The notes under the pieces: model-generated | Told to the model about the DNA's origin: nothing | What the model saw: only the letters and a program-made list of their open reading frames with translations | Database searches by the model: none | Assembly: GCA_022414725.1 (NCBI GenBank) | Contig: CM039465.1 | Span: 38,712,754-38,776,753, forward strand | DNA length: 64,000 bases | Direction of reading: 5' to 3' | DNA from: Microglena sp. YARC | Taxonomy: Eukaryota > Chlorophyta > Chlorophyceae > Chlamydomonadales > Chlamydomonadaceae | Made by a program: the position numbers and the translations under genes | In this document: one piece after another, positions 5,205 to 39,675 of the stretch | Numbering within the stretch: the stretch's first letter is position 1 | How the letters are laid out: each line of letters opens with the position of its first letter

Positions 5205-5316
5205 ATGGGCCGAGTGATGTGTGTGACGGGGGTTAAGGAGATGACAGTGGCAACATCTGAAACCAAGAGACAGGAGAGAATGTATGAAATCCCAGCTTCC
5301 GAATGGCGCATGCTAG
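5205..5316 (+). CDS. Serine acetyltransferase candidate exon 1
   Basis: ATG at 5205, 37 codons plus one base, donor GTACGT at 5317. The phase fits exon 2 (Gly codon split 1+2), and joining the two gives an open frame. The N-terminus shows no clear plastid transit signature. Chosen on phase, position and the divergent neighbour, not on homology. An upstream AACAG at 5191 could make this an internal exon instead. Confidence 0.42.
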
Positions 5317-8300
5317 GTACGTCCATCTTGCGTCTGCTCTGAGCGCGGTATTTGCGCTCCGCGATTTGATGATGTCTTGGCCCGCGACATAATATAAGTG
5401 AATCTCCATGTTTTGTCTGGGTTTTTTAAATTAAAATGGACGGTTCTGTACTTCACAAACTTGCACAAAAATCTATAGTGGTCTGGGCACTTACAGCAAC
5501 TTACACAAAAATCTATAGTGGTCTGGGTGACCTCACATTGACCCATATACATGGCTCCAATACAGCCAAATTGCTGGCTGGAGCCATGTACCCAAGGTCA
5601 AGTAGAATCGAAATTGAATTGGGTATCAGATTCACATCAGAGTGGTATAAATTAACACTAGCATCTGAGCCCGTCGTCCCGACGGGAGGACCACCCCCGT
5701 GGCCACGTCAGCGACAGGTGTCGGAAAATCGAGATCCGAGACGGGTTACTCCGTAACGGGTTGTCCTGAAACCACTGCCCCTGGCCACTTCAGCGAATGG
5801 CAGTCAGTGAGCGGGCAAGAGTGCGTGAGAGCGCAGGAGAAGGCCAAGGGAATGCTGCGACGGGGGGAATTGCATGCGAAGTTATTGACAGGGGCAGCGA
5901 AATTTGTGGGAAAGAGTTTGGGCAGATGAACAAAGGGAGGCTACACCGTTGAATATCGGGCGGCTCAGGCAGCGAGCACCGAAAATAGCAGAAGTGCGAA
6001 GGAAAATTCGGATATCAGAACGGCTGGGCCTGGAAGAGCAGCGAGAAGGAGTTGAAAACGACACCGGCTTCATTAGAGCAGCGCAAAGCAGTGCACGGGG
6101 TGAACAGGTCGCAGGAAAATTTGGGCACCAAGCCGGCTAACCTTGGACGGGTGGGTGGATGGGTGGACGGCAGACAGGCAGTCGTTCCTGTGGCTGCGAC
6201 GAAAAATCGAGATCCCAGACTGGCTGCCACCTGGGCGACAGGTCGGCAAGGTCGCTCCCAAGCGCAGGCAGCAGGGAGACCCAGAGACTGGCTGCCACCT
6301 GGGCGACAGGTCGGCAAGATATGGAACCAAAACCCCAAGCTGCCATGCCAAAAGGGGGCGACCACGCGCCGCGCACGCGCTAAACCGCCGACATGCTACT
6401 TTAAATAATAAGAAGATACGCTGCGTCACTGTAGTTGCCGTGCTGGGGGTACCTACCCGTACCTACCCGTACCCCCCCGTTCTGCAGGGGGGGTACCTAC
6501 TCGTACTAGGGTTGTACGTGCCAGCCAGGGTTGTTTATGGGTGCTTCGAAATCAACGATTGAAACGAAACTGTCACGTTGCTTTCTAATTTCGTATTCGC
6601 ATTGGACTGCTGGTCCACCAGATGACTGTATGATTGATACGCATCCCCCAGCCTTAGCTTGTACATAGCATCCGCAACCGGGCCTTCTTGCGTTTTCTTC
6701 TTGCACTACTCATGATGCGAATTTCGAACATTTCTCACGGCGGTAGTTTTAGCAGCAATCCGTCAACTTCCTACGGATCAAAAACGAAGCGAAGGCCCGC
6801 GGTCTATTCCTTTCCGAGTAAGCGTTGAACCTTGGACATAGGTTAACCTCAAACCGTGGACCGTAGCCAAGTTCCCTTCTCACCTGCATGGTCTAGCTCT
6901 CAGAGCCCGAGCCCCCTCCCAATTCAGTATGCAACTCCTTGTCCACAATCAGCCATCGTCTTCTAACCCAAGCAGTAATCCCCATATTCAAACTCAACAA
7001 TACCTCGCGCTTTGGCGTTGAAAGCTATTTGCAGTAGTGTGTGTGTGTGGTGGTGGTGGGGGGGAGGGGAGGTAGGGGGATGGGTGGGTGGGGCATATGT
7101 GCATGTGGTGTGTACTGTATTGTATGTGCACTGTTCAGGTGGAGGTGCTGAAGGCTTGTCACCCGTCCATATCTCCTTGCGCACAGCCCTCATGCCTCTT
7201 CCTTTGACATAAGGCACAACTGTGTATAAAGAGCATTGATTACCAAGTTATGTCCCTACAACATAAACACTGCTGCAGGGCTGCCAGGTGCATCAGGCCA
7301 TCCTACCCCCCCCACCCCCCCACCCTAGTCCGCCCACACCACCTCCATTCACCCCCGCCAACATCCAAACAAACAAGTAGACACGCACCGCATAAGTGAA
7401 CACTGTTGCAGGGCTGTCAGGTGTGTCAGGCCATCCTACCCCCACACACACCCACCCACACCGCCCACACCGCCCCCATTCACCCCCGCCCACATCCAAA
7501 CAAACAAGCAGACACGCACCGCATGCGTGAACACTGTTGCAGGGCAGTCAGGTGTGTCAGGCCATCCTACCCCCACCCACCCCCACCACCCCCACCACCA
7601 CCACCACACACACAAACCTTACGCGCCCACACCGCCCCCATTCACCCCCGACAACATCCAAACAAACAAGCAGACACACACCGCATACGTGAACACTGTT
7701 GCAGGGCTGTCAGGTGTGTCAGGCCATCCTACCCCACCCACCCACCCACCCTCCATCCTACCACCCACCCACCGACACCCGCCTCCACCGCCCCCATCCA
7801 CCCCCACCACCATCCAAACAAACAGACATGCACCGCATACGTAAACGCTGCTGCAGGGCTGTCAGGTGTGCTAGGCCATCCTGCCAGGATTCCTGCTTAT
7901 GATAAAGCTCTTAGGAGGGCAACTCGGTGCAGGGGGTACATGCCTCCAGGACAACCCTTTGGCGAGACTAGCCCTGTCGAGGTGCATGATGAGGGGTGCC
8001 CCTCGGATGGATGGAGGTGGAGACCTCATCACTTGAGTAAGCACCAGTTGTGGCAGCGATGCAGGGGGGAAGCAACCGAGGATGCGGTGCGTGTCTGTTT
8101 GTTTGGACGTTGGTGAGGGTGGATGGGGGCAGCGATGCAGGGGGGAAGCAACCGAGAATGAGGTGCATGTCTGTATGTTTGGACATTGGTGGGCGTGGAT
8201 GGGGGCGGTGTAGGTAGGGGGGAAGCAACCGAGGATGTGGTGCGTGTCTGTTTGTTTGGGCGTTGGTGGGGGTGGATGGGGGCAGCGATGTAGGGGAGAA

Positions 8301-9463
8301 GCAACCGAGGATGAGGTGCATGTCTGTTTGATTGGACGTTGGTGGGCGTGGATGAGGGCGGTGTAGGTGGGGTGGAAGCAACTGAGGATGCGGTGCGTGT
8401 CTGTTTGTTTGGACTTTGGTGGGCGTGGATGGGGGTAGCGATGCAAGGGGGAACACCCACACACCCATCCATTCACCCATCTATCCATCCATCCATCTAT
8501 CCATCCACCCACCCACCCACCCACCCACCCATCCATTCACCCATCTATCCATCCATCCATCTATCATCCACCCACCCACCCACCCACCCACCCATCCATT
8601 CACCCATTCATCCATCCATCCATATATCCATCCATCCATCCATCCATCCATCCATCCATCCATCCATCCATCCATCCATCCATCCATTCATCCATCCACC
8701 CATCCACCCACCCATCCACCCACCCACTCACCCATCCATCCATCCATCCATCCATATATCCATCCATATATCCATCCATATACCCATCCATATATCCATC
8801 CATCCACCCATGCACCCATCCACCCACCCTCACAATCATTGTGTGACGTTAATTAGCATGATCGCCTATAAGCCTAAACCCTAAAACTTAAACACTAAAC
8901 TCTCACAGCCATTGTCTGACGTTAATAAGCATGATCGCCTACAAGCCCAAAGCCTAAACCCTAAACCCTTAACCCTAAACCCTAAACCCTCACAATTAGT
9001 GTGTGACGTTATTAGCAGGGTAATTCAAAGCGCGCGCTTTTGCGCTTTTGAGCGCTGACTTTTTGACCCCCTCAGCGCTTTAAGCGCAGTTTTTTGCAAC
9101 TCCCTGTGGGCGCAGCAAGCAATTTTTGCGCTTTTTGCACTACAAAGCGCAGTTTTTTGTTTTCAATTGCGCTAAAGCGCTGGCCAATTTGCCAATTTGA
9201 AGAATTCTGGTTATTAGGCATGATTGCAAGCTGTTTGTAGTGAGCAAATACCACAAGAACCAGTCTCCACCCTACCTTACATCATGTTTTCCACCCAGAC
9301 GGTATTGGTTATCCCTTGCAAGTTGCATAGCAATAGAACGTGAATATGCCTGGTTGTAACCTGTTCTCTGGTTATTGGTGGTTGGCCCCAGTGGAAGCGA
9401 AGGGGCTGCCCCCCTCAACCTTAGCATCGTAATAAGATGCTATATATGTATTCATTTATTTGT

Positions 9464-9502
<39 letters not shown>

Positions 9503-12500
9503 CTTACTTACTTACTGTTCTCCCCGCAGGTTGCAGATCAACGGCTGGCCTCAGATTTATACAGCACTGTGCTTTCACATCCCAATTTATTTATTTACTG
9601 CTCTCCCCGCAGGTTGCAGAGCAACGGCTGGCCTCAGATTTATACAGCACAGTGCTTTCACACCCCAATTTTTTTTTTTTTTTTTTTTATTTATTTATTT
9701 ATTTATTTATTTACTGTTCTCCCCCGCAGGTTGCAGAGCAACGGCTGGCCTCAGATTTATACAGCACTGTGCTTTCACACCCCAATTTATTTATTTATTT
9801 ATTTATTTACTGTTCTCCCCCGCAGGTTGCAGAGCAACGGCTGGCCTCAAATTTATACAGCACTGTGCTTTCACATCCCAGCTTAGAGAAATGTCTCGCC
9901 TTCATCTTGTCAAAAGCCATTGGGGATCCCAACATGGTCGGAACGCTTCAACTCATGATTCTATTCCAGGTATGAGTAGCACTTTTTAATGAAAACATAT
10001 TTTTTATTAAAAGTTTTTTTATGAAAAAGAATTTCACTCCAGGAGATGAATTTCCTGACAGAAACCGGAACTCTTCAACTCATGGACGTATTCCAGGTAT
10101 GAGTATAAGTTTTTTTTTATGAAAATAATTTCACTCCAGGAGGTGGGTCTCCTGACACAAATTGGAACTCTTCAACTCATGAACGTATTCCAGGTATGAG
10201 TTGCCCTTTTGTTGTGAAAATAATTTCACCTCAGGAGGTGGGTCTGACACCAAACGGAACTCCTCTACACATGATTATATTACATATTCCAGGTTTCAGT
10301 AGTAGTTTTTTTTAAGAAAAGAATTTCACCCCAGAAGGTGGGTCTCCTGACACAAACCGGAACTCTTCGACTCATGATTATATTCCATATTCCAGGTATG
10401 AGTAGTAGCTTCCTTTTTGTTATCAAAGGAATTTCACCACAGGAGGTGTGTCTCCCGACACAAACCAGCGGCACCGAGGATTCAGTTCAAATGGTGTGGC
10501 CACTGCCACAAAAGAGTAGGCTCCCTTAGGGTCGGGTTGCCGAAGAGCTTATTTTTGGCGGAGCCCCCTCTTCAAGGACGCAGGAGCCCCCATGTTTGCC
10601 CATTTGTCCGTCTGTCCGACCGAAAAACTTGAAGCCCGACACGTCAGCCAACGGTCGCGTAACTAACTCGCTTCGGTCAGCTCCATCGTTGCCACCTTCT
10701 GTTCCGGTGCCAACACACGCCGCCAATTTCCCGCGTCGCTTGGGACACTGCATATGACTTGTTCACTAAATCAAGGGTGGGAAAGGAACAAAGCTAAAAG
10801 AAGTTTCTATAACCTGTATTTCCTATAAAAACCTTATGGATTCTACCATCCATATAGGGGCCGAAATATAACAAAAAAGTGCGATATTGTATGCATGTAT
10901 GGTCGGGACTCTTCAGCTGATGATTATTTTCCAGGTTATGAGTGATAGGGGGAAGTTAGCCCCCACTTCAATTGGCCCCCATTCCCTAAACCCTAAACCC
11001 ACCTTAACCCTAAACCTTTGAATCTAAACTAAACCACTAAACCCTAACCCCCCTGAATTAAAACGGGGGCTAAATTCCCCCCACCGGTATGAGTAGCAGT
11101 GATTTGTTTTTCAAATCTGAAAGTGGGTTTCTTCTAGCTGTCTGGTTTCAGTGCTCCTCCAGGGACAGCGTTTTGGTGCTTTCTGTAGCTTTTTGTAGCT
11201 TTTTAGGACCATTTGTGGCACTGTAGGGCAAAAAAACTTTTTTTGTTTTTCTTCTTTTTTTATTGCGATAATTTCGCTGAAACGGGGTCGAAAGTAGCGA
11301 TCGCTACAAATAGCGGGAAAACAATCCCTGATGAGTAGGCTTGCCAAGTACAGATGTATCATGTGATATATCAACGATATCATATGATATCCGTACGATG
11401 TTGTACAATATATCAACCCTCTAGGAAGTTGCTCTTATACCACGTCCCCAATTAGGGACCTAGAGGGGCCCCTTTACCACTGAGATAAGTAGAAATCGAC
11501 TTTCTGAGGGGGTAGATCTTGATCCTTCCAAAGGGGTGTGTGTGGGGGGGGGGGAGGGGGTCGAGCCAGTTTCAGAAAATCTTTGAACTTCCTCACCAGG
11601 CGGAATCTGACGAATATAATATAACCACCTAAAGTGGCTTAAGCAGAGCTATCCGAAGCCGTGTTTATTTCTGACATCAAGTTAATGTGAGGTAGAGCTC
11701 GAGAAGTGACCTCCACAGGTTCCAGGGTTCTAATTGTGAAAGTTGGGCCAAACCAGAAATTGTATTTTTCCACCCCGAACTTCTTGGGTGTATAGAGGGT
11801 ACTTAGACATGCAACAGAGCATTAAAAACATCTTCAAATTCTCAAACACCAAAAACTTGCTAGGTCAGCTCAGATTCAGGGCTAGGAAAGGGGGATAGCA
11901 GGACAACTTTGTCAAACTTCGTCTACAAACACATGTAAGACCACAAATGGATAGCGCTCCTTGAGAGGATCACTAAACACCCTACTTTGACCCCCTAATT
12001 ATTTATTACGTGTTCATTACGACCAGGATTGTTTTGAAGGTGCTAAATACCGTTTTGCAAGAGTGCTAAATTATGTACCATAGTCTTCTGGGGGTGCTAC
12101 GTCACAGTTTTCTGTGTGGGTGGGTGGGTGGGGTGGGGGGGGGAGGGGGTACCTCCAGGGCTTATCTTCTCAGCGTTTTTCATCAGCTTCTAGGCAGCTC
12201 CCCAAGCCAGCCACTGTGCTACACCCAAGTGTTTCAGCAGCTTCTAGGCAGCTCCCCAAGCCAGCCACTGTGCTACACCCAAGTTTCCAGCAGCTTCTAG
12301 GCAGTTCCCCAAGCCAGCCACTGTGCTACACCCAAGTGTTTCGGCAGCTTCTAGGCAGCTCCCCAAGCCAGCCACTGTGCTACACCCAAGTTTTCCAGCA
12401 GCTTCTAAGCAGCTCCCCAAGCCAGCCACTGTGCTACTCCCAAGTTTGTCAGCAGCTTCTAGGCAGCTCTCCAAGCCAGCCACTGTGCTACACCCAAGTG

Positions 12501-15500
12501 TTTCAGCAGCTTCTATGCAGCTCTCCAAGCCAGCCACTGTGCTACACCCAAGTATTTCAGCAGCTTCTAGGCAGTTCCCGAAGCCAGCCACTGTGCTACA
12601 CCCAAGTTTTCCAGCAGCTTCTAAGCAGCTCCCCAAGCCAGCCACTGTGCTACTCCCAAGTTTGTCAGCAGCTTCTAGGCAGCTCTCCAAGCCAGCCACT
12701 GTGCTACACCCAAGTGTTTCAGCAGCTTCTAGGCAGCTCCCTACGCCAGCCACTGTGCTACACCCAAGTTTTCCAGCAGCTTCTAAGCAGCTCCCCAAGC
12801 CAGCCACTGTGCTACTCCCAAGTTTGTCAGCAGCTTCTAGGCAGCTCTCCAAGCCAGCCACTGTGCTACACCCAAGTGTTTCGGCACCTCTGGACAGCTG
12901 ATTGTTTCAGCTCCAAGGTGCACTATTTTATGCGGGCTGCAGCTGTTGTGAAGCATATTTTTCAGCTGTTGTGAAGCATATTTTCAGCTCCAAGGTGCAC
13001 TATTTTATGCGGGCTGCAGCTGTTGTGAAGCATGTTTTTCAAAGCCCCCCGAGCCGGCCAACAACAGATGTCGGTTGGAGTTAGCTTGACACAAGGTGTT
13101 AGTTAGTTCCAAGTAGGTTGCGTTAGGTTTAGCTGGATAGCAAGTCCGGGGAGCTGCCTAGAAGCTGCTTGTCGTAGCGGACAATAAAAGCCATGGTACC
13201 TTCAGCCTTCAGATCCAACAACACTGCTAGTAGCCCCTCAAAACCTACTAGGAGCACCAGGGAGCACCAGGGAGCACTACTTAACACACACTGGTTCCTT
13301 ATCTTACACAACAAAACTGATTATGACCGTGCTTCTTTTATAGGCTCCCCAAGCCAGCAATCTGTTTTTGCAAGCATAGTTTCATTGCATCGTACTCGTT
13401 ACCTGTGAAGGCCAAGGCCACAGGCTTCTGCGCATTGATCTCTGATGCCATTGCAGAGGGGTCAGTGACGGATAGGGGGAAGCTAGTCTGGGGGTAGCCA
13501 GTCCGGGGGTGACTGGTTAACCCTAACCCCCTAAACCATAACCCCTAACCCCCTAACCGATCACCCCTGGACTTGGTACCCCTGGACTAGCTTCCCCCTA
13601 CCTCAGCGACGAGTTTTTGCATGAACTTCGATATCATGACATCCCTATGGATTAGCGTGGGCGAAGCTGACAGGGCTCCTGCCCCCGATGATGTCCTTGC
13701 AGTCGTCGAATCTGTTTTTTCAAAAGGCAGCTTCATTACATCGTAGCGAATAAATAAAATGAATAAATAGTGCGCCTTATTATGACATTTATGAGGTTTG
13801 AGCCTTTGAGGTTGAGGGGGGCAGCCCGTTTGCTTGCACTGGCGCCAACCACCAAAAGCATTGCATTGTGCAGTCTATTGAAATATTTCCTATTCATTCT
13901 GGTACTCGTACCCTCGCCCTCTGTTTCTGCCGCATTTCGTTTCCAGGCACAACAGTGTGCCACGTCGACGTGCTATTTCTTTTCTCTTCACCCCTAACTA
14001 GCGCTATAATTACGGGGTTTATTTTAGCGCTAGCAAGCTCTAGTAGCTCTAGTAGCGCTAAACTCCTCCCCCCCCCTCCTAACCCTATTGTACCGTATAT
14101 TGAAATATTTCTTATCCTAAACCCTAACCCTATTCATCCCCCCAAATGGCCATTCAGGAGACCTACGCAGCCGCCCCCGATTTAGTGGAATGTGCAGTGT
14201 GCGACATTATGGCGGTCAAGGATCGTGACCCTGCTTTTGACCAGTACATGTAAGCTTTGGTCGCCCCAGTGCAAGCACCCCCTCACCCCCCACCCCCGCC
14301 CTGACCCCCCACCCCTCTTAACCCTATCCATCCCCCAAATGGCTGTTCAGGAGACCTACGCTGCTGCCCCCGATTTAGTGGAGTGTGCAGTGTGCGACAT
14401 TATGGTGGTCAAGGATCGTGAACCTGCTTGCGACAAATATGTGCGAGCCTTGTTCTTCAAGGGATTCCAGGCTGTCCAATGCCAGAGGGTGGCAAACTTT
14501 CTGTGGAACAATGGACGAAAGGTGGGTGGGGTGGGGGGGGTAGGTAGGTGGGGAAATTAGCATTTATCCCGATAGCAATGCCAGAGGGTGGCAAACTTTC
14601 TGTAGAACAATGGACGAAAGGTGGGTGGGGTGAGGGGGTAGGTAGGTGGGGGAATTAGCATTAATCCCGATAGCATTGCCAGAGGGTGGCAAACTTTCTG
14701 TGGAACAATGGACGAAAGGTGTGATAAGTATTTCTTAGACAAGAAAACAAATCATTAAAATTATAACAATATATATACACAACAAAATGCAAAATAACGG
14801 GTTGGATCAATGCTTGTTCAACTTCTTTATTGGAATAATGATAGATTTTATAAAAATACAGAATGGCTTTATCTACAACTAAATATGATATGATGAAATG
14901 ATTTGTACTATTTTATTTTATGATGGAGACATGGATGGGCTTTTATTTCTCATATTGGTACTTGTTTTCTAGTTGTGTCACTTGCACACTTTCTGTGGAA
15001 CAATGGACGAAAGGTGTGTCATCAAGGTTTTTATTTTCGGCTATTCTTAGAAGCTTCTAGGCAGCTCCCTGAGCTAGCCACTGGGATAGACCCACAAATT
15101 CCAGCAGTGTTAGAAAGCTGATTACGCCAGCTTCCAGGTGCACTAGGTTGCCTGTTATTTGGCTGAATAGCCAGCCAGAGGAGCTACCTAGAAGCTGTCG
15201 CTTGTACTACAAATACCAGACTTTCCCCTGCATTCGGTGGTTGGCCCCAGTGCACGTAAACGGGCTGGCACCCTCAACCTCACGCCTCTTAATAAGTACG
15301 GAACGGCAACTAATATTAGTGTTTGAAAAACTAATATTAACTAATATTATTATAGTGTCACAATAATATTAGTTTTCCGGGTTTTTCAAATAAATTTGAA
15401 ATTCTGGTGAGACGGCTCATCCGACTAATATTATATAATATTATATAATATTATCTATTCACTAATATTATATAACATAGCCGACCCCTATTAATAAGGT

Positions 15501-17829
15501 GTATTATTTATCTGTTTTATGTTCAGGTACTGGCACTGGCGATCCAAAGCCGCAGGTCTTGTTAAATTATCATTGTAGCACGAACTCAGGGCCCCCGTCG
15601 GTGAAATGATTATTTGGGGCTCTGTTCATTAATGCTTTTTCTTTTTAGCCCTTCCTGTCACGGTTGGGCAAATCTCTTAGGCCTATTTGGCCTACCCCTG
15701 GTCTGTAACATACATACAAAAATATGTACATGCAGGTCCTGGCGCTAGCGATCCGAAGCCGCGCGTCACAGATCCCCTCAACCTCACGCCTCTAAATAAG
15801 GCGTACCAAGTATTTGTTTTATTTACAGGTACTGACACTAGCCATCCAAACCTGCATGTCCCAGGTCGCCCTCGGCCTTACCCCTCTTAATAAGGCTTAC
15901 TGTTTATTTGTTCTTTTTTCAGGTACTGGCGCTAGCAATCCAAATCCGCATGTCCAAGGCCCCCCTTAACCTCACGCCTATTAGTAAGGCGAACTATGTA
16001 TTTGTTTTATTTACAGGTCCTGGCGCTTGCGATCCAAAGCCGCATGTCACAGGTCTACCACTGTTGCATCCATCCTGCCGCTACCTTGGGTCGGGGCATA
16101 CTGCTTGACCACGCCACAGGTGTGTTTAAGATTTCCAATATCTCTTGCCTATTTCCGGTTTCTGGTGGTCCAGACCACGCCTCAGGTGTGGATACGATGT
16201 TCAATATCTTATGCCTTTGTCGGCTTTCTGATGGCTCAGACCACGCCACAGGTGTGTATACGGTTTTCAATATCTCATGCCTATGCAACCAAGGACTCCG
16301 CCTAAAAATTGATACCGTTATTCGTTGGATTTTTTAATGTTCTCACTTATTGAACCTTCTGTTTTAGCCAACTTGCAGCTTACATTTATTATTTGATAAC
16401 CGTTTTTTAGTTCAAGAGATCACTTTTGAACCAAGCCTCCAAATAGCAAGGGAATGGTAACTAATATTAGTGTTTGAAAAACTAATATTAGCTAATATTA
16501 TTATAGTGCCACACTTATATTAGTTTTTCGAATAAATTCGAAATTCTGGTGAGATGGCTCGTCCGACTAATATAATATAATATTATTTATTCACTAATAT
16601 GATAACATAGCCGACCCCTACAAATAGCTGTGCCATCAGCATGCCCCCTTCTCCAGCTTTTTTTCAAATCTGAAAGCGGGTTTTTCAATGGTTTTAGGCC
16701 TCCTCCAGGGACAGCTGTTTTTAGCATTTTAGGGCCATTTAGGCTACATACACAAAATTGAAGCGGTCAGTTGGGCCAAATCGGGGTCAAAAGTAGCGAT
16801 CGCTATATATAGCGAGGAAAAACTCCCTGCCCTGCTCCAACCTATAGTCCCATTCATTGTGGTGTCTCTCTTTTCGGCCACGCATGCAGCTTCCAGTCAG
16901 CTCCACCAGCCAGCCACCTGGCCATCCCCACAATTTTCAGCTGAATTCGACTGCCCTTTATGTCACATTTCAGGCACAGTTTTAGTTTCAGCTCTAGGTT
17001 TGGCCAAAGTTTTTGGCGCTACTGGTGGCAGGATCAAGCCAGCTCCATAGGGCAGCCACAGTGTCTATCCCATACCTTTCAGCTGCATTAGAATGCATGC
17101 CATCTCACCTTTCAGGCACACTAGCTAGCTTCAGGTTTGACTCAAGGACAGGGAAAGAGAGCTGTGTGGCAGTTTTTTAATATGAAAGTGGTTTTTTTCA
17201 GCTTTATGGTTTTAGGCCTCCTCCAGGGACAGCGTTTTAGTGCTTTTTATAGCTTTTTGTAGCTTTTGGGGGCCATTTGGGGCACACAAAAAAAATGTTT
17301 GTTTACTTTTTTATAGCGATAATTTCTCTAAAACGGGGACAAAACTAGCGTTTGCTATGTACAGCGGGAAAAGAATCCCTGCTGTGTAGAAGCTACTACG
17401 CATAGCTCAAAAAAGAAACAGTGCCCTAATGCATGTGGCCATCTGTCCATTGGTGTCTGGAGTCCTAACCCCTCTCTCTACGTGTCTGTTGGTGTTCATG
17501 CAGGTATCGTTATTGGAGAGACAGCAATCGTAGGTGATAATGTGTCCATGCTACACAGGGTATCGCTCGGAGGTAGCGGTATGAGCCACATGAGGCGACA
17601 CCCAATGATTTGCCACGGGGTGCTGCTGGGTGCAGGCGTCAGTGTGTTGGGGCCTGTCGTCATTGGCCGGGGCTCCAAAATAGGAGCTGGCTCGGTTGTA
17701 GTGACCAGCGTGCCCGAGCACTGTGTGGCTGTCGGCATTCCAGCGAAAGTGGTGAAGCGGGATTTGAAGAAGGAGCCAGTCCAAGAAATGGACCAAATCA
17801 GCGGCTTTATATTGGACTACGTGATTTGA
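5205..17829 (+). CDS. SAT: Serine O-acetyltransferase, six-exon gene
   Basis: It transfers acetyl from acetyl-CoA to L-serine, giving O-acetylserine for cysteine synthesis. Proposed exons 5205-5316, 7857-8086, 9826-9969, 14351-14521, 16017-16119 and 17504-17829 total 1,086 nt, with every junction phase matching: 361 residues, normal for plant-type enzymes. In order one sees [11 protein letters not shown] and [16 protein letters not shown] (N-terminal helical domain), [23 protein letters not shown], then left-handed beta-helix hexapeptide repeats with [44 protein letters not shown], and the C-terminal DYVI tail that binds O-acetylserine (thiol) lyase. By alignment from memory to E. coli CysE, His158, Arg192 and His193 are kept, but the Asp92 position is Glu and the Asp143 position is Cys. 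Exons 3-6 are secure, exon 2 is likely, exon 1 is a proposal. Confidence 0.88.
5440..6400. repeat. Intron 1 direct repeats
   Basis: A 35-bp direct repeat built on ACAAAAATCTATAGTGGTC (about 5465 and 5504), and a repeated block with ATCGAGATCC and CTGCCACCTGGGCGACAGGT at about 5715, 6205 and 6290. Several frames are open here because the sequence is GC-rich, but none resembles a protein I know. At 6450-6520 there is an imperfect palindrome with GGGGGTACCTAC. Segment 6520-7270 shows nothing else recognisable. Confidence 0.5.
7279..7856 (+). repeat. Tandem echoes of the exon 2 splice acceptor (array A)
   Basis: Four units of 130-160 bp upstream of real exon 2. Each carries a TGCAG acceptor and the first ~28 bases of the exon (copies start at 7279, 7412, 7543, 7705; the real exon at 7857). 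The rest of each unit is C-rich and contains CCAAACAAACAAGCAGACAC. That motif is the reverse complement of the sequence just inside the donor of exon 2. Confidence 0.88.
7857..8086 (+). CDS. Serine acetyltransferase exon 2
   Basis: Acceptor CTGCTGCAG, 2 bases plus 76 codons, donor GTGCGT. The 3' end encodes [15 protein letters not shown], which continues into exon 3 as [12 protein letters not shown]. This is the W..(I)R.EA..DA..E..L.S.LY block shared by serine acetyltransferases. The upstream part ([13 protein letters not shown] and onward) is N-terminal extension without a recognised motif. Confidence 0.72.
8087..8455 (+). repeat. Tandem echoes of the exon 2 splice donor (array B)
   Basis: Five further units, period about 77 bp, each repeating the last ~30 bases of exon 2 (GGGGAAGCAACCGAGGATG) plus the donor GTGCGTGTCTG and intron sequence. 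Copies end near 8161, 8238, 8315 and 8391; the last, at 8434-8453, is cut by the CCAT microsatellite. Confidence 0.88.
8456..8832. repeat. (CCAT/CCAC)n microsatellite
   Basis: Nearly 380 bp of CCAT and CCAC tetramers. Long open frames on both strands are a by-product of this composition. Confidence 0.95.
8833..9005. repeat. Telomere-like CCCTAAA tracts in a ~65-bp repeat
   Basis: Three degenerate units combine TGTGTGACGTTAATTAGCAT with short CCCTAAACCCTAAA stretches. It is interstitial: unique gene sequence lies on both sides, so this is not a chromosome end. Confidence 0.85.
9020..9190. repeat. GCGCTTTT/AAAGCGC cluster
   Basis: Repeated GCGC motifs (TTTTGCGCTTTT, AAAGCGCAG, TAAAGCGC) on both strands within 170 bp. 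No coding signal; the function is unknown. Confidence 0.6.
9381..9472 (+). mobile_element. Short hairpin element (family H), intron 2 copy
   Basis: Contains GTTGGCCCCAGTGGAAG, CCCCTCAACCTT, a perfect hairpin AGCATC..GATGCT and ATTCATTTATTTG. It belongs to the family defined at 28347-28413 and lies just upstream of the acceptors of the exon 3 copies. Confidence 0.65.
9530..9785 (+). repeat. Echoes of the exon 3 splice acceptor and 5' end
   Basis: Three copies (starting 9530, 9613, 9730) of the CCCCGCAG acceptor plus the first ~55 bases of exon 3. They encode the same (V)A(D/E)[16 protein letters not shown] before dissolving into TTTA repeats. Each is a truncated duplicate with no donor. Confidence 0.92.
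9826..9969 (+). CDS. Serine acetyltransferase exon 3
   Basis: 48 codons, phase 0 at both ends, acceptor CCCCCGCAG and donor GTATGAG. It encodes [18 protein letters not shown], then [12 protein letters not shown] and the LQLM..(F) helix. This is the N-terminal trimer-interface domain of the enzyme. Confidence 0.92.
9990..10936 (+). repeat. Echoes of the exon 3 splice donor
   Basis: Copies of GGAACTCTTCAACTCATG..TATTCCAG|GTATGAG end at about 10095, 10193, 10291 and 10395. A truncated copy lies at 10430-10475 and a distant one at 10903-10936. The period is roughly 100 bp, and the TTTCACTCCAGGAGGTG intron segment is repeated with them. Segment 10476-10900 is a dispersed repeat loosely like 590-930, with no gene. 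Confidence 0.92.
10946..11083. mobile_element. Small TIR element filled with CCCTAAA tracts, copy 1
   Basis: Begins TAGGGGGAAGTTAGCCCCC and ends with the near reverse complement (GGGGGCTAAATTCCCCCC). The centre is CCCTAAACCCTAAACCC-type repeats. Flanks read TATGAGTGA and TATGAGTAG, a possible 9-bp duplication within an exon 3 donor echo. Confidence 0.6.
11097..11330 (+). mobile_element. hAT-like MITE family A, copy 1
   Basis: Terminal inverted repeats CAGTGATTTGTTTTTC and, reverse-complemented, CAGGGATTGTTTTCCC. A perfect 8-bp target duplication ATGAGTAG lies at 11089-11096 and 11331-11338. No coding capacity. Related copies are at 16654 and 17170. Confidence 0.85.
11340..12175. other. Intron 3 sequence without recognised genes
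   Basis: Mixed unique-looking sequence with a GGGG-rich tract near 11540 and loose similarity to the STCTGGGGGTGCTACGT repeat seen at 4547. No exon, RNA gene or element could be supported. Confidence 0.5.
12180..12895. repeat. ~54-bp minisatellite with higher-order structure
   Basis: About 13 units built on CAGCTTCTAGGCAGCTCCCC and CCAGCCACTGTGCTACACCC. Variants repeat in a three-unit order (AAGCAG, then CTACTCCCAAGTTTGTC, then TATTT/TGTTT types). The frame is open on both strands, giving 286- and 205-codon ORFs that I regard as non-genic. A degenerate unit recurs at 15050. Confidence 0.9.
13477..13602. mobile_element. Small TIR element filled with CCCTAAC-type tracts, copy 2
   Basis: Starts TAGGGGGAAGCTAGTC and ends GACTAGCTTCCCCCTA, a perfect 16-bp inverted repeat. 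The centre is CCCTAACCCCCTAAACC. Same type as 10946-11083. Confidence 0.75.
13745..13853 (-). mobile_element. Hairpin element family H, intron 3 copy (reverse)
   Basis: On the minus strand it reads GGTTGGCGCCAGTGCAAG, CGGGCTGCCCCCCTCAACCTC and AATAAGGCGCACTATTTATTC, matching family H, although the hairpin stem is partly lost. Confidence 0.6.
14158..14249 (+). repeat. Echo of exon 4 5' half
   Basis: Acceptor GGCCATTCAG and the first ~90 bases of exon 4, then GTAAGC, a good-looking donor. It encodes the same [18 protein letters not shown] but reads [10 protein letters not shown] where the full exon reads [10 protein letters not shown], so the duplicate keeps the ancestral Asp. Confidence 0.9.
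14351..14521 (+). CDS. Serine acetyltransferase exon 4
   Basis: 57 codons, phase 0 at both ends, acceptor GGCTGTTCAG, donor GTGGGT. It encodes [34 protein letters not shown] and NNGRK, the DI.AV..RDPA..KY..LL.(F)KGF.A.Q..R..H.LW..GR block of the family. The usual RDP is REP here. Confidence 0.93.
14578..15013 (+). repeat. Echoes of the exon 4 splice donor
   Basis: Three copies of the exon 4 3' end (GCAAACTTTCTGTGGAACAA then TGGACGAAAG|GTG) at 14578-14620, 14677-14718 and 14989-15013. One carries a G-to-A change that turns the Trp codon into TAG. Between the last two is AT-rich sequence. Confidence 0.92.
15238..15513 (+). mobile_element. Hairpin element H interrupted by MITE B
   Basis: 15238-15296 matches family H up to CTTAATAAG. 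Family B MITE then interrupts it, and H resumes at 15491 with TTAATAAGGTGTATTATTTATC. The nest shows that H is older than B. Confidence 0.75.
15297..15490 (+). mobile_element. hAT-like MITE family B, copy 1
   Basis: 194 bp, AT-rich centre with ACTAATATTA motifs. Imperfect terminal inverted repeats TACGGAACGGC and TAGGGGTCGGC; perfect 8-bp target duplication TTAATAAG (15289-15296 and 15491-15498). Related to 16448-16620. Confidence 0.85.
15527..15957 (+). repeat. Echoes of the exon 5 splice acceptor and 5' end
   Basis: Four copies (starting 15527, 15736, 15829, 15923) of CAG|GT(A/C)CTGGC plus ~35 bases of exon 5 (GCGATCCAAAGCCGCATGTC). The last three and the real exon are spaced 93-94 bp apart. 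Between copies the intron is the family H element (CCTCAACCTCACGCCTCTTA). Confidence 0.92.
15574..15709 (-). repeat. Dispersed repeat family D1, copy 3
   Basis: Reverse-oriented copy of the 135-bp family, inserted between the first and second exon 5 echoes. Confidence 0.7.
16017..16119 (+). CDS. Serine acetyltransferase exon 5
   Basis: 34 codons plus one base. Acceptor TATTTACAG, donor GTGTGT. It encodes [22 protein letters not shown] and LLDHAT(G). The acidic residue normally preceding IHPAA is Cys here. DHATG carries the catalytic His. Confidence 0.94.
16171..16256 (+). repeat. Echoes of the exon 5 splice donor
   Basis: Two copies of CAGACCACGCC(A/T)CAG|GTGTG at 16171-16185 and 16237-16251, period 66 bp, with the flanking TTCAATATCT..TGCC intron segment. 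Confidence 0.88.
16448..16620 (+). mobile_element. hAT-like MITE family B, copy 2
   Basis: 173 bp, perfect 8-bp target duplication CAAATAGC at 16440-16447 and 16621-16628. Same ends and AT-rich centre as 15297-15490. Confidence 0.85.
16654..16829 (+). mobile_element. hAT-like MITE family A, copy 2
   Basis: Ends CAGCTTTTTTTC and, reverse-complemented, CAGGGAGTTTTTCC. Flanks CCCTTCTC and CCCTGCTC match at 7 of 8 positions. Confidence 0.75.
17170..17381 (+). mobile_element. hAT-like MITE family A, copy 3
   Basis: Ends CAGTTTTTTAA and CAGGGATTCTTTTCCC. Flanks CTGTGTGG and CTGTGTAG match at 7 of 8 positions. Confidence 0.8.
17504..17829 (+). CDS. Serine acetyltransferase exon 6 (C-terminus)
   Basis: Acceptor GTTCATGCAG. 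It encodes the beta-helix core [55 protein letters not shown], and ends [11 protein letters not shown] then TGA. The terminal Ile tail is what plugs the active site of O-acetylserine (thiol) lyase in the cysteine synthase complex. Confidence 0.96.
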
Positions 17830-17852
17830 AATTTGAAGATTTGGAATCTGAA

Positions 17853-18073
17853 GTTTGAAGGAGGAGCCAGGCCAAGAAATGGACCAAATCAGCGGCTTTA
17901 TGCTTGACTACTTGATTTGAGCCAAACAGGAACTGAGCCATGTTGGTAGCGATGGGCTGAGGCTGTAAGGGGAATAGCTCTGAGGCAGAAAGGGAATAAG
18001 GTGGAGGACGGATTTGATCTTGACTGGTCGAGGTTGGGCAATCAGTGGCTTTATATTGGACTACGTGATTTGA
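17853..18073 (+). repeat. Two echoes of the serine acetyltransferase C-terminal tail
   Basis: 17853-17920 repeats the last ~68 bases including the stop (reading MDQISGF then DYLI). 18040-18073 repeats the last ~34 bases (TTTATATTGGACTACGTGAT). Both lie downstream of the stop codon. Confidence 0.9.
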
Positions 18074-18942: not shown

Positions 18943-20686
18943 AATTACATTACATTACATGTTAAAGTCTACTTGACACCGCGAGGGTGTAAGAGACTCT
19001 GTGCTTTAAACAAAAAGAAAAAGCACCCACAAAGCAAAAAAAAAAATTACATCAGGGGTGTGTCGAGGACAAACAAACCAAACTCCTAGCCACCGTTTTG
19101 GTGGCGTAGGTATTAACCCCCCAGATTAGAGCAGGACCCAGATCTCAACCACTTACAGTGGCGGAGGTAAGAAGCTAACAGATGAGAAGTCACAAGAAAT
19201 AAAAAAAGGGATAATAAATTACGGTGCCACTAAGCAGTCTAGGGCTTCCTGTCTTGCTCTTCTACAAGTAGAAAGATAGTCGGCTAGGTTGCTCCAAAAA
19301 GGCTTGGTGCCATTTCCATTCATGAAGGTTCTGAATGCGGAATCGCTGAGTTCCACATTCCATACGGTTAAGTCGGTATCCTCATGGACATGCATATAAA
19401 TATATGTAAACAGCTTCTGGTAGCGGAGGCCAATATCATTATAAAAAGGGCACTCAAACATGTGCATTTCATCCTAAGTTTTTTGGAACCCACACAGTTG
19501 ACAGTGTCTCATTGAACGAGGGATGTGTGCTCTATCCACCACCCTCATTCTTTCTGTGTTCAGCCAATGGGAACCTATTCTAAACTGTGCTATAGAACGA
19601 ATCTGATCCTGCTTATGTAAGGCGGATGTAAAGGGAATCAAGCCATTCTCATCATTACTGTTGGCTGCGAACCATTTCTGGTATCGGATGCGTTTAAAGC
19701 CAACCCTTCTCTCATCAGGGATGTCTCTGACTGCATTGGTGTCACCTGGGTACTTAAACCTCCATGACTCAAAAACTTCAGATATAATACCTGCGACATC
19801 GACAGCCTCCAAAATGTTGAGGTTTTTACTGGATCCTAGCTTGTGGAGAGCACAACGTAAGTCATGAACCCAGCCAGTGTTGGAATCAAAAGATTCCTCA
19901 AGAGCATTTCTAGTGAGATCCTCAGGTTCTTTATCTATGGTCTTGTTCCAGAAGCGCGAAGCTTGTTTAAGCCAAGCAAAACACAACGGGGTTCTACCCA
20001 GCTCTTCCATGATAATATAAGATGTAGTAGATTGGCAAACGCCCAACATGTGTTTAAGTATACCTCTATGCCATTTCTCACAAGCATGGTCATTTGAGAT
20101 AAGTGTGTTGTTCAAAATAGAAGGAGCCCACACCTCACAACCAACATTCAGGATAGGTTGTACAAGAGAATCAAACAGGTGGGTGAGAATATCAATATTG
20201 TATATCTCCATGGTATGGCATCGCCTACGGAGCATGTGGTGGGCTTCAGTGAGCATCCTAGAAAAAACAGCTTTTGCACGACTGCTTGAGTCACCATCCA
20301 CAAAGAGGGATCCCAGGTAGATAAAATATAACTTCATAGAAAGTTGTGCTCCATCATAGACAAATTTGTAATCAGGATCCATGCGGGCCTCATCACAGAA
20401 TTGCTTGTTGAAAACGACAATCCCAGTTTTCTTTTTTACTCACAGCCATCTTAGTAGCCTCGCAGAAATCTCTCAGGCAGTCAAGCATCGCATGCATATC
20501 TGCCGGGGATTCTGCCATTATAGCTAAGTCATCAGCATAAAGTAACAGTTGCAGAATCTTTCCCCTAAGCTCAGCCCCTACATTTGGGAGCTTGGATTGG
20601 AGGAACGATTCAATTCTATCAATGAACAGACCGAATAGGATTGGGGATAGGGGGTCTCCTTGTTTAAGTGTTTAACTCCTACAAGG
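18943..20686 (-). pseudogene. LINE-C reverse transcriptase, 3' portion
   Basis: The minus-strand frame runs from QGDPLSPILFG-type sequence near 20660, through LLYADDLAIMAES (catalytic YADD near 20535), YLGSLF, the thumb, and the C-terminal knuckle CQLCG..H..EC to about 19219. The frame shifts once near 20420 in an A/T run and has an in-frame TAG at 19474-19476 inside the knuckle. The 3' tail is a short ATGTA repeat (18943-18961). The rest of the domain resumes at 28095 after the inserted elements. Confidence 0.8.
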
Positions 20687-20716
20687 TATCAGCAGTCATT
20701 CTCTTCCAGATGACCT
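20687..20716. mobile_element. Fragment of inverted-repeat element arm
   Basis: TATCAGCAG..CCAGATGACCT continues after the copia insertion at 27757 as CAGTTGACACCTGATATCAG. Together they match the right arm of the element at 27772-28094. Confidence 0.6.
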
Positions 20717-21099
20717 TATCAGCTAGAAAGCACTTCGAAGAGTGGAGAGAGATGTATGCAGCGGAGACAGACGCGCCAATCTATACACGGAGACAAGAAT
20801 AGCGTTACAAGGACAGGCGGACGCCAAAGAACACCAGCGGTGGGAGAGGCGGATGCCTGTAACCTGACTAGACCCTAAGTCAGGAAACTTAAGCCAGGCA
20901 CCGGCTATACAGAGTGTGTCAGTGAGAGACCGATGACGCAGTCAACAGGAAGCTGTCACCGTGTCATGAAGGATGACACAGTCTACGGGAAGCTGACACA
21001 GTACAGACAGAAACACTGTCTGGGCCGATAGTTCTAAGGAAGTATATAAGTAGTCACCAAGTCATAAAACGCGTGAGAGCACCGCAATTCATGCTGACA
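20717..21099 (-). repeat. copia-1 3' LTR
   Basis: 383 bp, TGTCAGC..GCTGATA in element orientation. Confidence 0.95.
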
Positions 21100-21422
21100 C
21101 TCCACCTATGACACAGGTGACATACAATACTACCTCTCCACCTATGGCACTGGGGACATAGAACTATATGTAACATATATAAAAAAAAAAAAATCAAAGA
21201 ACTCCGAAAAAATCGAGAGAACTTCAAATGGAACCCAAAGGGTTATAGGAAGGAATGAAACAAGGCAAAAAATTCTAAAACAATTTGCCAAGCTAGAAAG
21301 AGAGGAAAAACTAATATCAAAAATGTGTAACAACGGTATAGAAAACCCGATCCGGGAATAGGAACCTAATGCCAAACTTTGATAACGAAAAGAAACTAAT
21401 ATGACCAAATGCAAGGATGACC

Positions 21423-23034
21423 CTAAGAAGAAGCGGTCATACCTAACATGCGGACAAACCTCCAGAGCACAGCAGGATCAAGGGGCTTGGTGAAGGGGTC
21501 AGCACAGTTATCCACGGTGTTAACATAGGCAACATCCAGTGAACCATCCTCCACCAGCTCCTTGATGTAGTGATGAATAACATCAATGTGCTTGCTGCGA
21601 GGCAGGAGCTGCCAGTCTTTGGCCCAACTTAGAGACCCTAAGTTGTCACCCTGAATGGTAACCAAAGCACAAGGCAGACCCAGATCCACCCTCAATTTCT
21701 TCAACCATTGTACCTCCCTGGCAGCCTGGGACAGGGCCTGATACTCAGCCTCACTAGAGCTAATGGCAACAGTAGGCTGCCTCTTGCTCATCCAGTTCAC
21801 TATGCACCCCCCAGCTAGCACAGCAAAGCCAGTCTGAGACCGCCTGTCAGACCCATCATCAGCAAAGGATGAGTCACTAAAGACAGTAAAAGAGAACTCA
21901 GGGTTGTGGGTGTAAGTGAGACCCAGGTGGGAATGTGTTCTCAAATACAAGAGCAACCGCTTGGCAGCCCCCCAGAGAGGGACGGTAGGGTGAGCAGAAA
22001 ACCTGGACAGGTAGCTCACAGCAAAAGAAAATATCAGGCCTGGTGCAAGTAGCCAGGTATAGCAAAGCACCCACAAGAGAGAGGTACTGGCTATTAGACG
22101 GCAGGGGTTCTCCAGGGGCGTCAGAAACGGTGGACTTGGCCATGGGGGCAGCAAACCTGGGTGGGGCAGCATCAGTAAGACCAAACTGCTCCACCAGATC
22201 AACAATGTAGGTGTGCTCAGAGATGTTGATCTGAACACACCTGCCTTCAGAATCAAGTGTAACATGCATGTCCAAAGAGAGGAACTGAACCGGAACACCC
22301 ATCTCTTTGACCTCCCAGCCAGCCTTTTCCATAGCCTGGATAAGCAACACATACCTATCCAGCTCACTAAAAGCACAGATAAAATCATCAACATAGGTCA
22401 GAACATAGCTCCACCCACCATCAGAATCCTTCCTAAAATACAGAGCAGGTTCAGCCTTGCACATAGTGAAGCCGTGTGCAACCAGAACCCGCTTGACATC
22501 CCTACCCCAAGCCCTGGGTGCCTGCTTCAATCCATAAAGAGACTTGAGCAGCTTGCACACAAGGGGACCACCGTTGGGACCAAGATGCTGAAAGCCCTCA
22601 GGCTGGCGGCAGTACAGGTCCAGACCAGGTTCCAGCTTAGCGTTCAGAAATGCAGTTTTGATGTCCAGCTGCCGAACAAACATCTTTATATGAGTGATGG
22701 CAGCCAGGAGCACCCGAAGACCTGCTTTAGAGGAGACAGGGGCATATACGTCATGAAAATCCAGCCCAGGACGTTGCAGAAAGCCACGTACCACAAAACG
22801 TGCCTTGAAGCGTATAGAACCATCAACCCCAATCTTCTTCACAAATAACCACCTGCCTGACAGGATCTTTTGCTTACGAGGCTGTGGAGTGAGTACCCAA
22901 GTACCATGGGCATGTAGGGAAGCCATCTCATCCTTCATAGCAAGAAGCCATTGATCCCTGTCAGGGTTGGTAGGGAGCATGGCAGCTTTATAGGTTAGTT
23001 CAGTGGAGGGGGCAACAGATGCTCCCACGTACAA
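21423..23034 (-). CDS. pol: copia-1 reverse transcriptase and RNase H, one frameshift
   Basis: 23034-21898 encodes the reverse transcriptase (DQWLLAMKDEMASL, FKARFVVRGF, QLDIKTAFLNA, LYGLKQAPRAW, catalytic YVDDF near residue 213). At about 22040 one extra T in a T run shifts the frame inside the RPDI..AVSYLSRF motif. RNase H then runs to 21423 (SDSSFADD, ISSSEAEYQAL, SKHIDVIHHYIKE). RNase H at the end of pol is the normal copia arrangement. Confidence 0.92.
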
Positions 23035-23146
23035 GCAGTTTACTTGTACATGAGCAGCGGGGATATCAGCAGTATCAGCAGTAACCGGTAGTAGAGCCCC
23101 AGTGCAGAACTACTGCCTGGTTGAACAGGGCCGGCCTTATTTGCCT

Positions 23147-23917
23147 CTAATTCAACGAAGCCTGGGTCGACCGGAACACCCAGCCATACGCAGTATCGGA
23201 GCCTGACCAATGATCAAGATCATCACTTGCACTATCTGCAAAGGCTACATCATCACCCGGGCTCCCGATTAATCTATCAGGAACGGCAGGAGGCGAAGCG
23301 CTCACCAACCCCTTCGAGCCATCCAAGATGATTGGAGCAGGGTGACTATTAGACAATGGACCTATAAGAGGCTCCACTATGATCTGAGATTGTCGTAATC
23401 CTAGAGCTTCACCGACGGAATTTGACGCAGAGGAGGGCCTGGCGACCCCCTGAGATTCGGCTAAGATTTTATCCGTAGGAACTGCAGAACCTCGCCCGCC
23501 CAATGCATTCTCACGCAATACAGTACCAGCAGCCCCTGACCTGGGACGCAGAATCATCCTATGGCCAGGACAGTGGTCAACAATTGGGGAAAGCAAAGGA
23601 TCTAAGGAATGGCCCGCAGCCTCAGGCATGTGTCCGTTGATAGCGGCAGGGATGCTAGAAACATACGGCGACCCGTCATAGGGAGGAAGCCCAGGAATAC
23701 AGTTATAGCTAAACTGTTCATAGAAGAGTACATCACGACTCTCTACTACCTGGCGCAACTTAGGAACCCAAATAAAATAACCCTTACTCACCAGAGAATA
23801 CCCAACCAGTCTACCAGATAACGCCCTTTCGTCCAGCTTGTTACGTTTCTTCCCATTGACTAACGTGACACAGCAGGGGCATCCAAACACACGTAACAAC
23901 GACACATCAGGCATCAC
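23147..23917 (-). CDS. copia-1 integrase C-terminus and linker
   Basis: Continues with VFGCPCCVTL, GRLVGYS..KGYFIW and VESRDVLFYE, the copia integrase C-terminal signature. A long hydrophilic linker follows. Near 23170 and 23098 the frame slips at G runs that are one base longer in the copia-2 copy. Confidence 0.85.
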   Translation of the reverse strand: MMPDVSLLRVFGCPCCVTLVNGKKRNKLDERALSGRLVGYSLVSKGYFIWVPKLRQVVESRDVLFYEQFSYNCIPGLPPYDGSPYVSSIPAAINGHMPEAAGHSLDPLLSPIVDHCPGHRMILRPRSGAAGTVLRENALGGRGSAVPTDKILAESQGVARPSSASNSVGEALGLRQSQIIVEPLIGPLSNSHPAPIILDGSKGLVSASPPAVPDRLIGSPGDDVAFADSASDDLDHWSGSDTAYGWVFRSTQASLN

Positions 23918-25080: not shown

Positions 25081-25125
25081 GTTAGAGAACTTCGTAGTGC
25101 AAGAGAATAGGACAGAGCGTACCTC

Positions 25126-27045: not shown

Positions 27046-27373
27046 CAGAATATCCTCAACCTCAGGTCGGAGACGTTGGACAAAAGGAGAAGGAGACGGA
27101 GAAATGGAGGTATTGGAGGGGGGGTGGCTTCCATGATGGCGGAAGGAGACTTATCTCCGGCAGCAGAGGCCGCTGGCGCGCAATCATCTAGCCAATCAGT
27201 GGGAACACGAATCTTTAGAGGAAGAATTCGGTCGCATCCATTACTGATAATGACGCTCTCCATACCGCGCGACCAGGAAATACCATTCTGTGGGGTAAGT
27301 TTCTCGAAGCCGGCAGGAGGCCCACGCGGAAGTTGCATTGTAAAGCGGTGGTAGAAGTAATAAGCCCGTAACC

Positions 27374-36892: not shown

Positions 36893-36944
36893 ACACCACA
36901 GCAGATGCTTGGTGCTGAATTCATGCCTGTTGGGAAGAAATGAC

Positions 36945-39344: not shown

Positions 39345-39675
39345 TATCAGCATCAATTGCGGTTCACTTGATCGTTTTATGTCTTGGTGACTACTCCTGT
39401 ACTTCCTTAGAACTATAGCTGTAGATAGTAACAGCTTCCTGTAGACTGTGTCATCCTTCATGACACGGTGACAGCTCCTGGTGGGCTGCGTCCCCTGGTC
39501 CCCTGACATGCGCTGTATAGCCTGTACCCTGGTTAAGTTCCAGGTATCCGCCCCTTCCACCGCTGGTGTCTAATGTGTGTCCCCAGTCGCTTTAATCATT
39601 CTCATCATGCGTTAAAAGATTGGCGCGTTTGACCGCTGCGAGTATCTCTCCACTCTTGAAGTGTCTAAGCTGATA
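39345..39675 (+). repeat. copia-2 5' LTR
   Basis: TATCAGCATCAATTGC..GTCTAAGCTGATA, followed by GGTCATTGGGCTCA as possible primer-binding site. Confidence 0.9.

Follow-up and report, generated by a model that had tools for sequence, protein, structure and literature searches.

Truncated copies of exon edges in the introns of a serine acetyltransferase gene and of unrelated genes of Microglena sp. YARC

The window analyzed here is a 64-kb stretch of DNA from the green alga Microglena sp. YARC (C4:38,712,754-38,776,753 of a 568-Mb assembly with 2390 contigs), and our subject is the serine acetyltransferase (SAT) gene that it carries at 5.2 to 17.8 kb, together with the repeated sequence in the introns of that gene. 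The SAT gene lies on the plus strand and has six exons with GT-AG introns, which join into one open frame of 357 amino acids (aa). The coding part of exon 1 (5217 to 5316) is an open frame that is not conserved in homologs; neither it nor its start codon has homology support, and the start position 5217 is uncertain. It is followed by exon 2 (7857 to 8086), exon 3 (9826 to 9969), exon 4 (14351 to 14521), exon 5 (16017 to 16119), and exon 6, which includes the stop codon (17504 to 17829). Several of the exon edges read AG|GT. The predicted protein contains SATase_N and Hexapep domains, and its residues 88 to 348 match solved serine acetyltransferase structures. Green-algal serine acetyltransferases are about 60% identical to it, the best named homologs being those of Tetrabaena, Gonium, Edaphochlamys, Volvox, and Chlamydomonas. 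By homology, the predicted gene is thus green-algal.

We compared the gene with itself and searched each exon by blastn against the gene's noncoding DNA. The SAT introns do contain copies of exon edges, and the copy numbers that we recovered are those given in an earlier reading of this stretch (here, the original prediction). On the acceptor side, blastn found 4, 3, 1, and 4 copies for exons 2, 3, 4, and 5. The exon 2 acceptor array spans 7279 to 7733, with exon-derived parts at 7279-7307, 7412-7440, 7543-7571, and 7705-7733. The exon 3 acceptor copies (9530 to 9784) lie at 9530-9584, 9613-9667, and 9730-9784, with (TTTA)n in between, and the exon 4 acceptor copy (14158 to 14262), which is also found at the protein level, holds 105 exon base pairs (bp) at 86% identity. 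The exon 5 acceptor copies (15527 to 15954) are at 15527-15558, 15736-15774, 15829-15867, and 15923-15954. On the donor side, 5, 5, and 3 copies were found by blastn for exons 2, 3, and 4. Those of exon 2 form an array at 8128 to 8453 with a period of about 76 bp; those of exon 3 (10066 to 10934) are located at 10066-10096, 10164-10193, 10255-10284, 10358-10387, and 10899-10934; and those of exon 4 (14576 to 15013) at 14576-14620, 14674-14718, and 14984-15013. The exon 5 donor array (16173 to 16285) has two copies with a period of 66 bp by self-comparison, one of which was caught by blastn. The tail of exon 6 is present in two further copies 3' of the stop codon, at 17854-17920 and 18040-18073 (17854 to 18073 overall). 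All these copies are on the plus strand. As had been stated, they are truncated and do not comprise whole exons, and 27 of the 28 blastn matches between exons and noncoding DNA come within 8 bp of an exon edge. Altogether, 949 of the 11,539 intron bases of SAT are exon-derived.

Local direct repeats span 8 of the 10 internal SAT junctions. No such repeat crosses the exon 1 donor or the exon 6 acceptor, and no edge copies of either were found. The statement that almost every exon edge is copied therefore holds for eight internal junctions and for the stop tail, but not for these two. The 8 of 10 junctions are a clear excess over the repeat density outside the gene (12%, P = 1.8e-6), but a much smaller one over the density in the gene's own introns (37%, P = 0.007 only). 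Within the introns, the proportion of positions in repeats is 71% at less than 250 bp from an exon, 44% at 250 to 500 bp, 20% at 500 to 750 bp, and at most 8% at 750 to 1250 bp; deeper, it is 34 to 50%, and a 54-bp satellite is located there. Exon 2 is also flanked by an inverted repeat (7790-7838 versus 8082-8130, 92%), which we considered as a structural device and rejected. For 42 exons, inverted matches between an exon's own flanks scored 24.6, against 23.4 for the flanks of different exons (mean rank, 0.45). Because own-flank scores are barely above those of other exons' flanks, we ascribe the inverted repeat to the C-rich intron ends and G-rich intron starts described below.

A SAT paralog on C2 (L002, C2:30587029-30590130) provides an internal comparison. 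Its last exon is 76% identical to that of the window SAT, and the breaks between its exon matches fall close to those of the window SAT, near aa 158, 215, and 249. It has edge copies as well, with other breakpoints: the exon 4 donor copies start near aa 167-173 in the paralog and near aa 200-205 in the window SAT, and the exon-derived part of the exon 5 acceptor copies is about 46 bp long in the paralog, against 32 to 39 bp in the window SAT, the intron halves being unrelated. The stop tail of the paralog has two copies of its own. Since the exon breaks are shared and the copy breakpoints differ, old introns appear to have been lengthened separately in each SAT gene. Shared descent of the exon 5 acceptor arrays, whose periods are 93 and 94 bp, was considered, but independent events are likelier, since both the intron halves and the exon breakpoints differ. 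Periods also vary from junction to junction. These observations bear out the view that the copies arose by independent and repeated tandem duplication across splice junctions, with the introns growing as a result. A spare edge can be multiplied in turn: all three exon 3 acceptor copies have the same G, where the real exon and the Asn codon of the homologs imply an A, which shows that this spare acceptor was itself multiplied once made. The EukProt protein P0055 was matched by eye, letter for letter, to the last exon of the paralog. It lacks about 20 residues encoded by exon 3 of the window SAT, its start aligns poorly, and it has an internal near-repeat, oddities that perhaps reflect a gene-prediction error caused by edge copies.

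The divergence of the copies fits that of neutrally decaying DNA. Between copies and real exons, mismatches amount to 196/2292, 159/2286, and 379/2303 at codon positions 1, 2, and 3 (8.6, 7.0, and 16.5%). Positions 1 and 2 are thus at about half the level of position 3, as would fit a decaying copy, because at constrained positions only the copy changes. Near the junction, identity is 0.87 to 0.90 on the exon side versus 0.79 to 0.80 on the intron side beyond -12, and over whole alignments the exon-side divergence is below the intron-side divergence in 22 of 27 exons (10.9 versus 14.9%, P = 1.3e-4). Of 40 gaps within exon-derived sequence, one has a length divisible by 3, and ungapped copies hold 7 stop codons in 1362 codons, with about 10 expected at the same divergence without constraint. 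The original prediction held that each copy keeps a plausible splice site. This is true of all 22 SAT copies scored (11 AG, 11 GT), but over all sampled genes (SAT and those introduced below) the dinucleotides are intact in 92 of 112 copies. The identity of the AG and GT bases of the copies (0.893) is nearly that of the neighboring exon bases (0.896), and the splice sites of the copies thus appear to be neither kept nor purged. Nor was a steady decay with distance found: identity is 96, 95, and 96% for the three acceptor copies of exon 3, although in the exon 2 acceptor array the farthest copy is the worst. The idea that the process is ongoing fared better, as duplication looks recent in places, with copies 97 to 98% identical to the real edge at L064 and 97% identical in the SAT paralog. 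Since copies this similar could hardly be told apart by site strength alone, the real site would have to be chosen by position. Alternative splicing from the copies, which had also been proposed, finds no support here, because the copies look like neutrally decaying DNA.

The open reading frames of the window offered no other host gene as a control: for 10 of them no family passed its cut-off, and among a further 10, four had retroelement-type domains (one of them sub-threshold) and six had none. We therefore moved the test to other loci of the genome. In 20 evenly spaced 10-kb stretches, a mean of 28% of positions (median, 31%; range, 0 to 67%) lie within local direct repeats, the repeat partner being at most 1.5 kb away. 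For comparison, we used 20 internal exons each of kinesin and TCP-1 genes, from 128 and 64 matches, respectively, with 500- or 800-bp flanks. These exons were chosen by E-value, had no stops, lay inside the profile, and neither shared a frame with nor abutted a neighbor; their splice sites were placed by a scoring script. Local direct repeats cross 25 of 40 kinesin junctions (12/20 acceptors and 13/20 donors) and 14 of 40 TCP-1 junctions (7/20 of each), that is, 39 of 80 in the 40 exons together. Geometry-matched random positions lie in such repeats at proportions of 0.272 and 0.276 (250 draws each). Two TCP-1 matches on contig C2301 (L052 and L066) have no local repeats and poor splice sites and are possibly foreign DNA; they are included in the 39 of 80 and left out of the counts of 76 junctions and 38 exons given below. 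Four of the 20 kinesin exons already had overlapping echo matches in the profile-search table before they were chosen. Without them, the kinesin count is 18 of 32, and that for all genes, with C2301 also out, is 32 of 68. One more kinesin exon, eligible but in no count, has its start in a repeat and its end outside.

Edge copies can also be recognized at the protein level. A kinesin exon covering profile positions 191-296 is followed downstream by copies covering 251-296 and 243-296. Likewise, at one HSP70 locus, an exon that begins at profile position 466 is preceded by two truncated copies, which at the DNA level are an array of acceptor plus exon head. These examples were picked from match tables that include ambiguous overlaps, without a systematic count. 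Another pair of adjacent kinesin matches (G000, C1:30457694-30458053, minus strand) covers a nearly equal profile range (244-293 and 249-289), and here nearly the whole exon has perhaps been duplicated. The scan of other genes of the assembly thus extends the original prediction: exon-edge duplication is not confined to SAT, and several unrelated genes are affected.

When 38 of the exons were compared with their own flanks, 115 matches were obtained, of which 99 reach the near edge of the exon, none the far edge, and 16 the interior only. Exon centers are duplicated in 4 of 40 exons, against the 39 of 80 junctions, and exon interiors are thus not copied as often as edges, in line with the original prediction. 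For 38 of the 39 crossed junctions, the nearest copy is in the adjoining intron; these nearest copies contain 9 to 180 bp of exon (median, 72) and are shifted by 62 to 421 bp. Repeat density is flat from 400 bp into the intron, across the junction, to about 40 bp into the exon and then drops. Since exon centers are rarely duplicated, this profile indicates that a junction is duplicated as often as the adjoining intron, and the exon core is not. We dropped the notion of a minimum exon length in the copies, hinted at by the flat profile to +40 bp, because the exon parts run from 9 to 180 bp.

To judge whether junctions exceed what uniform duplication would leave, we simulated tandem duplication with the period spectrum of the genome (periods up to 500 bp) and uniform placement. 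Interior-exon and whole-exon events were rejected. Each of the 60 runs modeled six exons, array growth was either allowed or not, and duplication continued until the near-intron density reached 0.38 or 0.52. The simulated junction densities were 0.21 to 0.23 and 0.31 to 0.36, respectively; a cruder earlier simulation had given 0.25 at a near-intron density of 0.50. The observed value is 39 of 76 junctions (0.51) at a near-intron density of 0.48, which exceeds an expectation of about 0.31 (binomial P = 2e-4) or of 0.33 (P = 7e-4). This comparison favors some edge excess, about 1.6-fold over the neutral simulation.

Exon flanks are also asymmetric between the strands. In the 38 kinesin and TCP-1 exons and SAT exons 2 to 5, the mean GC skew is +0.30 at intron starts, which are G-rich, and -0.38 at intron ends, which are C-rich, with the expected sign in 32 and 34 of the 42 exons, and the C-richness covers the region 21 to 150 bp 5' of acceptors, beyond the ordinary pyrimidine tract. 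In random DNA, repeats correlate with strand skew (rho = 0.34); at junctions, the association is weak (P = 0.04). This suggests R-loop or G-tract instability behind the repeats.

Most of the pattern is one face of genome-wide local tandem duplication. Since such repeats cover about 28% of random positions, much of what is seen at exons can be attributed to a general mutational habit combined with the loss of events that break exon cores. We consider the following account probable. Where a tandem unit runs across a splice junction, one of the two copies remains attached to the body of the exon and would stay functional, and the other would persist within the intron as a spare edge that carries a splice site. 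Further rounds of duplication would turn this spare into an array. The real exon would remain under constraint while the spares decay neutrally, and duplications inside exon cores or of whole exons would be purged, leaving unique cores with duplicated edges. Splicing would ignore the spares if, as in exon definition, an acceptor and a donor are recognized together over the exon that they enclose, with preference for the innermost pair. We propose this innermost-pair rule because it explains positional choice without further assumptions. A modest extra tendency to duplicate at exon edges, perhaps connected with the excess of G at intron starts and of C at intron ends, may be added. The arrays, their placement, their presence in several gene families, their independent recurrence in the paralog, and the neutral pattern of decay were computed directly; that exon definition renders the spares harmless we infer from them, and the extra edge tendency is put forward with more reserve still.

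How special the junctions are is the point on which the nearest alternatives differ. Uniform local tandem duplication followed by survivorship, in which interior events die and junction-crossing ones live, would make junctions nothing special. It agrees with the flat density from -400 to +40 bp, which falls only deeper, with the broad spread of the exon parts of nearest copies, and with the background of repeats at random positions. The simulation, however, modeled exactly this process and fell short of the observed junction density, and SAT repeats cluster within 500 bp of exons, dropping to 20% or less from there to 1.25 kb. We find this alternative rather doubtful. At the other extreme, exon edges would be a preferred target of duplication, for instance via R-loops on strand-skewed intron ends, and outward duplication from edges, near-neutral through exon definition, would be a main engine of intron growth. 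We regard this as a tentative possibility, less likely to be right than wrong.

The remaining explanations fare worse. Selection might keep the copies as alternative or decoy splice sites or as mutually exclusive partial exons, and the intact sites of the scored SAT copies, the 92 intact sites among all sampled genes, and the rarity of gaps in exon parts could be read in that way. Such use is very unlikely, since the splice dinucleotides change as fast as the adjacent exon-side bases, the codon-position, gap-length, and stop-codon patterns are those of neutral DNA, and the copies are truncated. A dispersed mobile element that supplies acceptors and drives the arrays has about as little to recommend it. 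In its favor, the exon 5 unit has a dispersed intron half (among the matches listed, 46 of 49 are outside SAT), and copies of a related short element occur in front of the exon 3 array and in introns 3 and 4. On the other hand, a search for the element gave one match region in the TCP-1 set (20 loci) and no match in the kinesin set (20 loci), and the exon 2 and exon 4 arrays had no match either. The original prediction related the copies to the creation of introns by tandem duplication of AGGT-containing exon segments, the Rogers model, for which the AG|GT edges and the plainly active tandem duplication speak. That model predicts the head of the downstream exon at the intron start and the tail of the upstream exon at its end, whereas edge copies occur only beside their own edge, in the 28 SAT matches as in the other 38 exons. 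Moreover, the model calls for new intron positions, and the exon breaks are common to the paralog, a comparison within one species. Intron birth of this kind is highly improbable here, and this part of the earlier interpretation is not supported, while repeated junction-crossing duplication and intron growth are. Finally, tandem arrays are prone to misassembly, but the copies differ from the real edge by 2 to 27% as well as by indels, their periods vary by junction, and they recur in unrelated genes on several large contigs, so that an assembly or sequencing artifact is scarcely credible.

Several observations weigh against the reading that we prefer, namely rife local duplication whose junction-crossing products decay as spares. 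Junctions lie in repeats no more often than intron sequence 50 to 400 bp away. Because of this, the link to junctions in particular comes from the simulation, and the edge excess depends on the simulation filter, which is our own assumption. Repeats make up 56% of one TCP-1 gene examined over its whole length, yet 3 of 12 junctions were found crossed by script and a fourth by eye. Splice sites in the sampled genes were placed by script rather than from RNA; the sites include a poor donor at L036 and a few weak acceptors. Near the junction, exon divergence is 0.5 of intron divergence, but over whole alignments the ratio is 0.73. Exon parts contain about 5 times fewer gap letters per aligned base than intron parts (0.014 versus 0.067), which exceeds the factor of two of simple neutral decay and may be due to simple repeats in the introns. 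Exon definition, too, enters as a deduction. The sample comprises kinesin, TCP-1, and SAT with its paralog, plus HSP70 at one locus, all in one species.

Minisatellites are made of head-to-tail units of tens of base pairs that grow and decay. The SAT and sampled arrays resemble them in consisting of head-to-tail units of tens to hundreds of base pairs in several copies (some junctions have one spare only) and in evolving without coding constraint by codon positions, gap lengths, and stops, the gap density of exon parts being below simple expectation. Unlike minisatellites, they have units anchored on a coding exon edge. Whole-exon duplication, as in mutually exclusive exons, does not describe them, as the SAT copies are truncated and gaps are seldom multiples of 3. 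As to introner-type elements, the exon 5 unit has a dispersed intron half, and no intron was seen to consist of a single element.

Among published cases, as far as their accessible text goes, one tandem duplication over an intron-exon boundary made one new intron in potato RdRp (PMC4974935). As here, it spans an existing boundary, splice signals included; unlike that single new spliced intron and exon, here many duplications have left decaying copies in old introns of several genes. The Drosophila cases of the Rogers model (PMC2891723) likewise involve tandem duplication beside splice sites that alters gene structure, but here the copies stand beside their own edge, introns only lengthen, and no new intron position is seen. 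For Chlamydomonas reinhardtii and Volvox carteri, a 2013 survey (PMC3887541) found tandem repeats to be dense near intron-exon junctions; these, too, are green algae with repeat-rich introns, more so near junctions. Its available text counts repeats inside introns and does not describe copied exon edges, splice sites, or neutral decay. In Lipomyces, stwintrons were formed by donor duplication (PMC7138796). There, too, a donor site is duplicated beside the original, but the duplications are of 4 to 7 nt inside the donor and yield nested functional introns, against tens to hundreds of base pairs here. The accessible parts of PMC5966456 and PMC8226300 contain nothing on exon-edge copies, and a literature search, which did not reach subscription papers, found no description of such copies in introns. 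Growth of introns by tandem repeats is thus known; arrays of coding exon edges in several genes appear to be new.

The window holds further repeated sequence. A dispersed repeat of about 100 bp, which starts TTGGTGGTTGG and ends in a T-rich tail, is located at 9375-9436, 13739-13868 (minus strand), and 15229-15282 and in the intron halves of the exon 5 unit (15774-15825, 15868-15919, and 15959-16013); it has matches in 6 of 20 random 10-kb stretches. The acceptors of exons 3 and 5 are directly preceded by this tail, from which their pyrimidine tracts may be derived. Intronic stretches that are plant-type telomere-like, (CCCTAAA)n or CCCTAA-rich, occur at 8949-8990, 10985-11060, and 13520-13568, and six of the 20 random stretches contain the motif as well. 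Other clean tandem arrays, unconnected with SAT exon edges, lie at 12175-12886 (54-bp unit) and 35502-36893 (167-bp unit). Retroelement-like stretches extend over 19477-27150 and 38599-49540 on the minus strand and 54855-60051 on the plus strand. In these, Pfam matches an SH3 domain of retroviral type at 23150-23929, a reverse transcriptase below threshold at 47208-48269, and a gag at 54855-56000. An open frame of 1048 aa (56908-60051) carries reverse transcriptase, RNase H, and integrase domains as well as a chromodomain match below threshold. Neither Rfam nor a tRNA scan returned anything in the 64-kb window.

These findings bear on two open questions, namely, how introns lengthen harmlessly and how the spliceosome ignores near-copies of its sites. 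The spares are decoys of known parentage and graded age, whose evolution could reveal by what rules sites are chosen and what a decoy costs. They are also a warning for gene finders, which may make errors in such genomes, with P0055 as an example. If edges are indeed preferred for duplication, each exon would sit inside the debris of its own edges, and thousands of decoys of graded age would record the choice between the real site and the spare.

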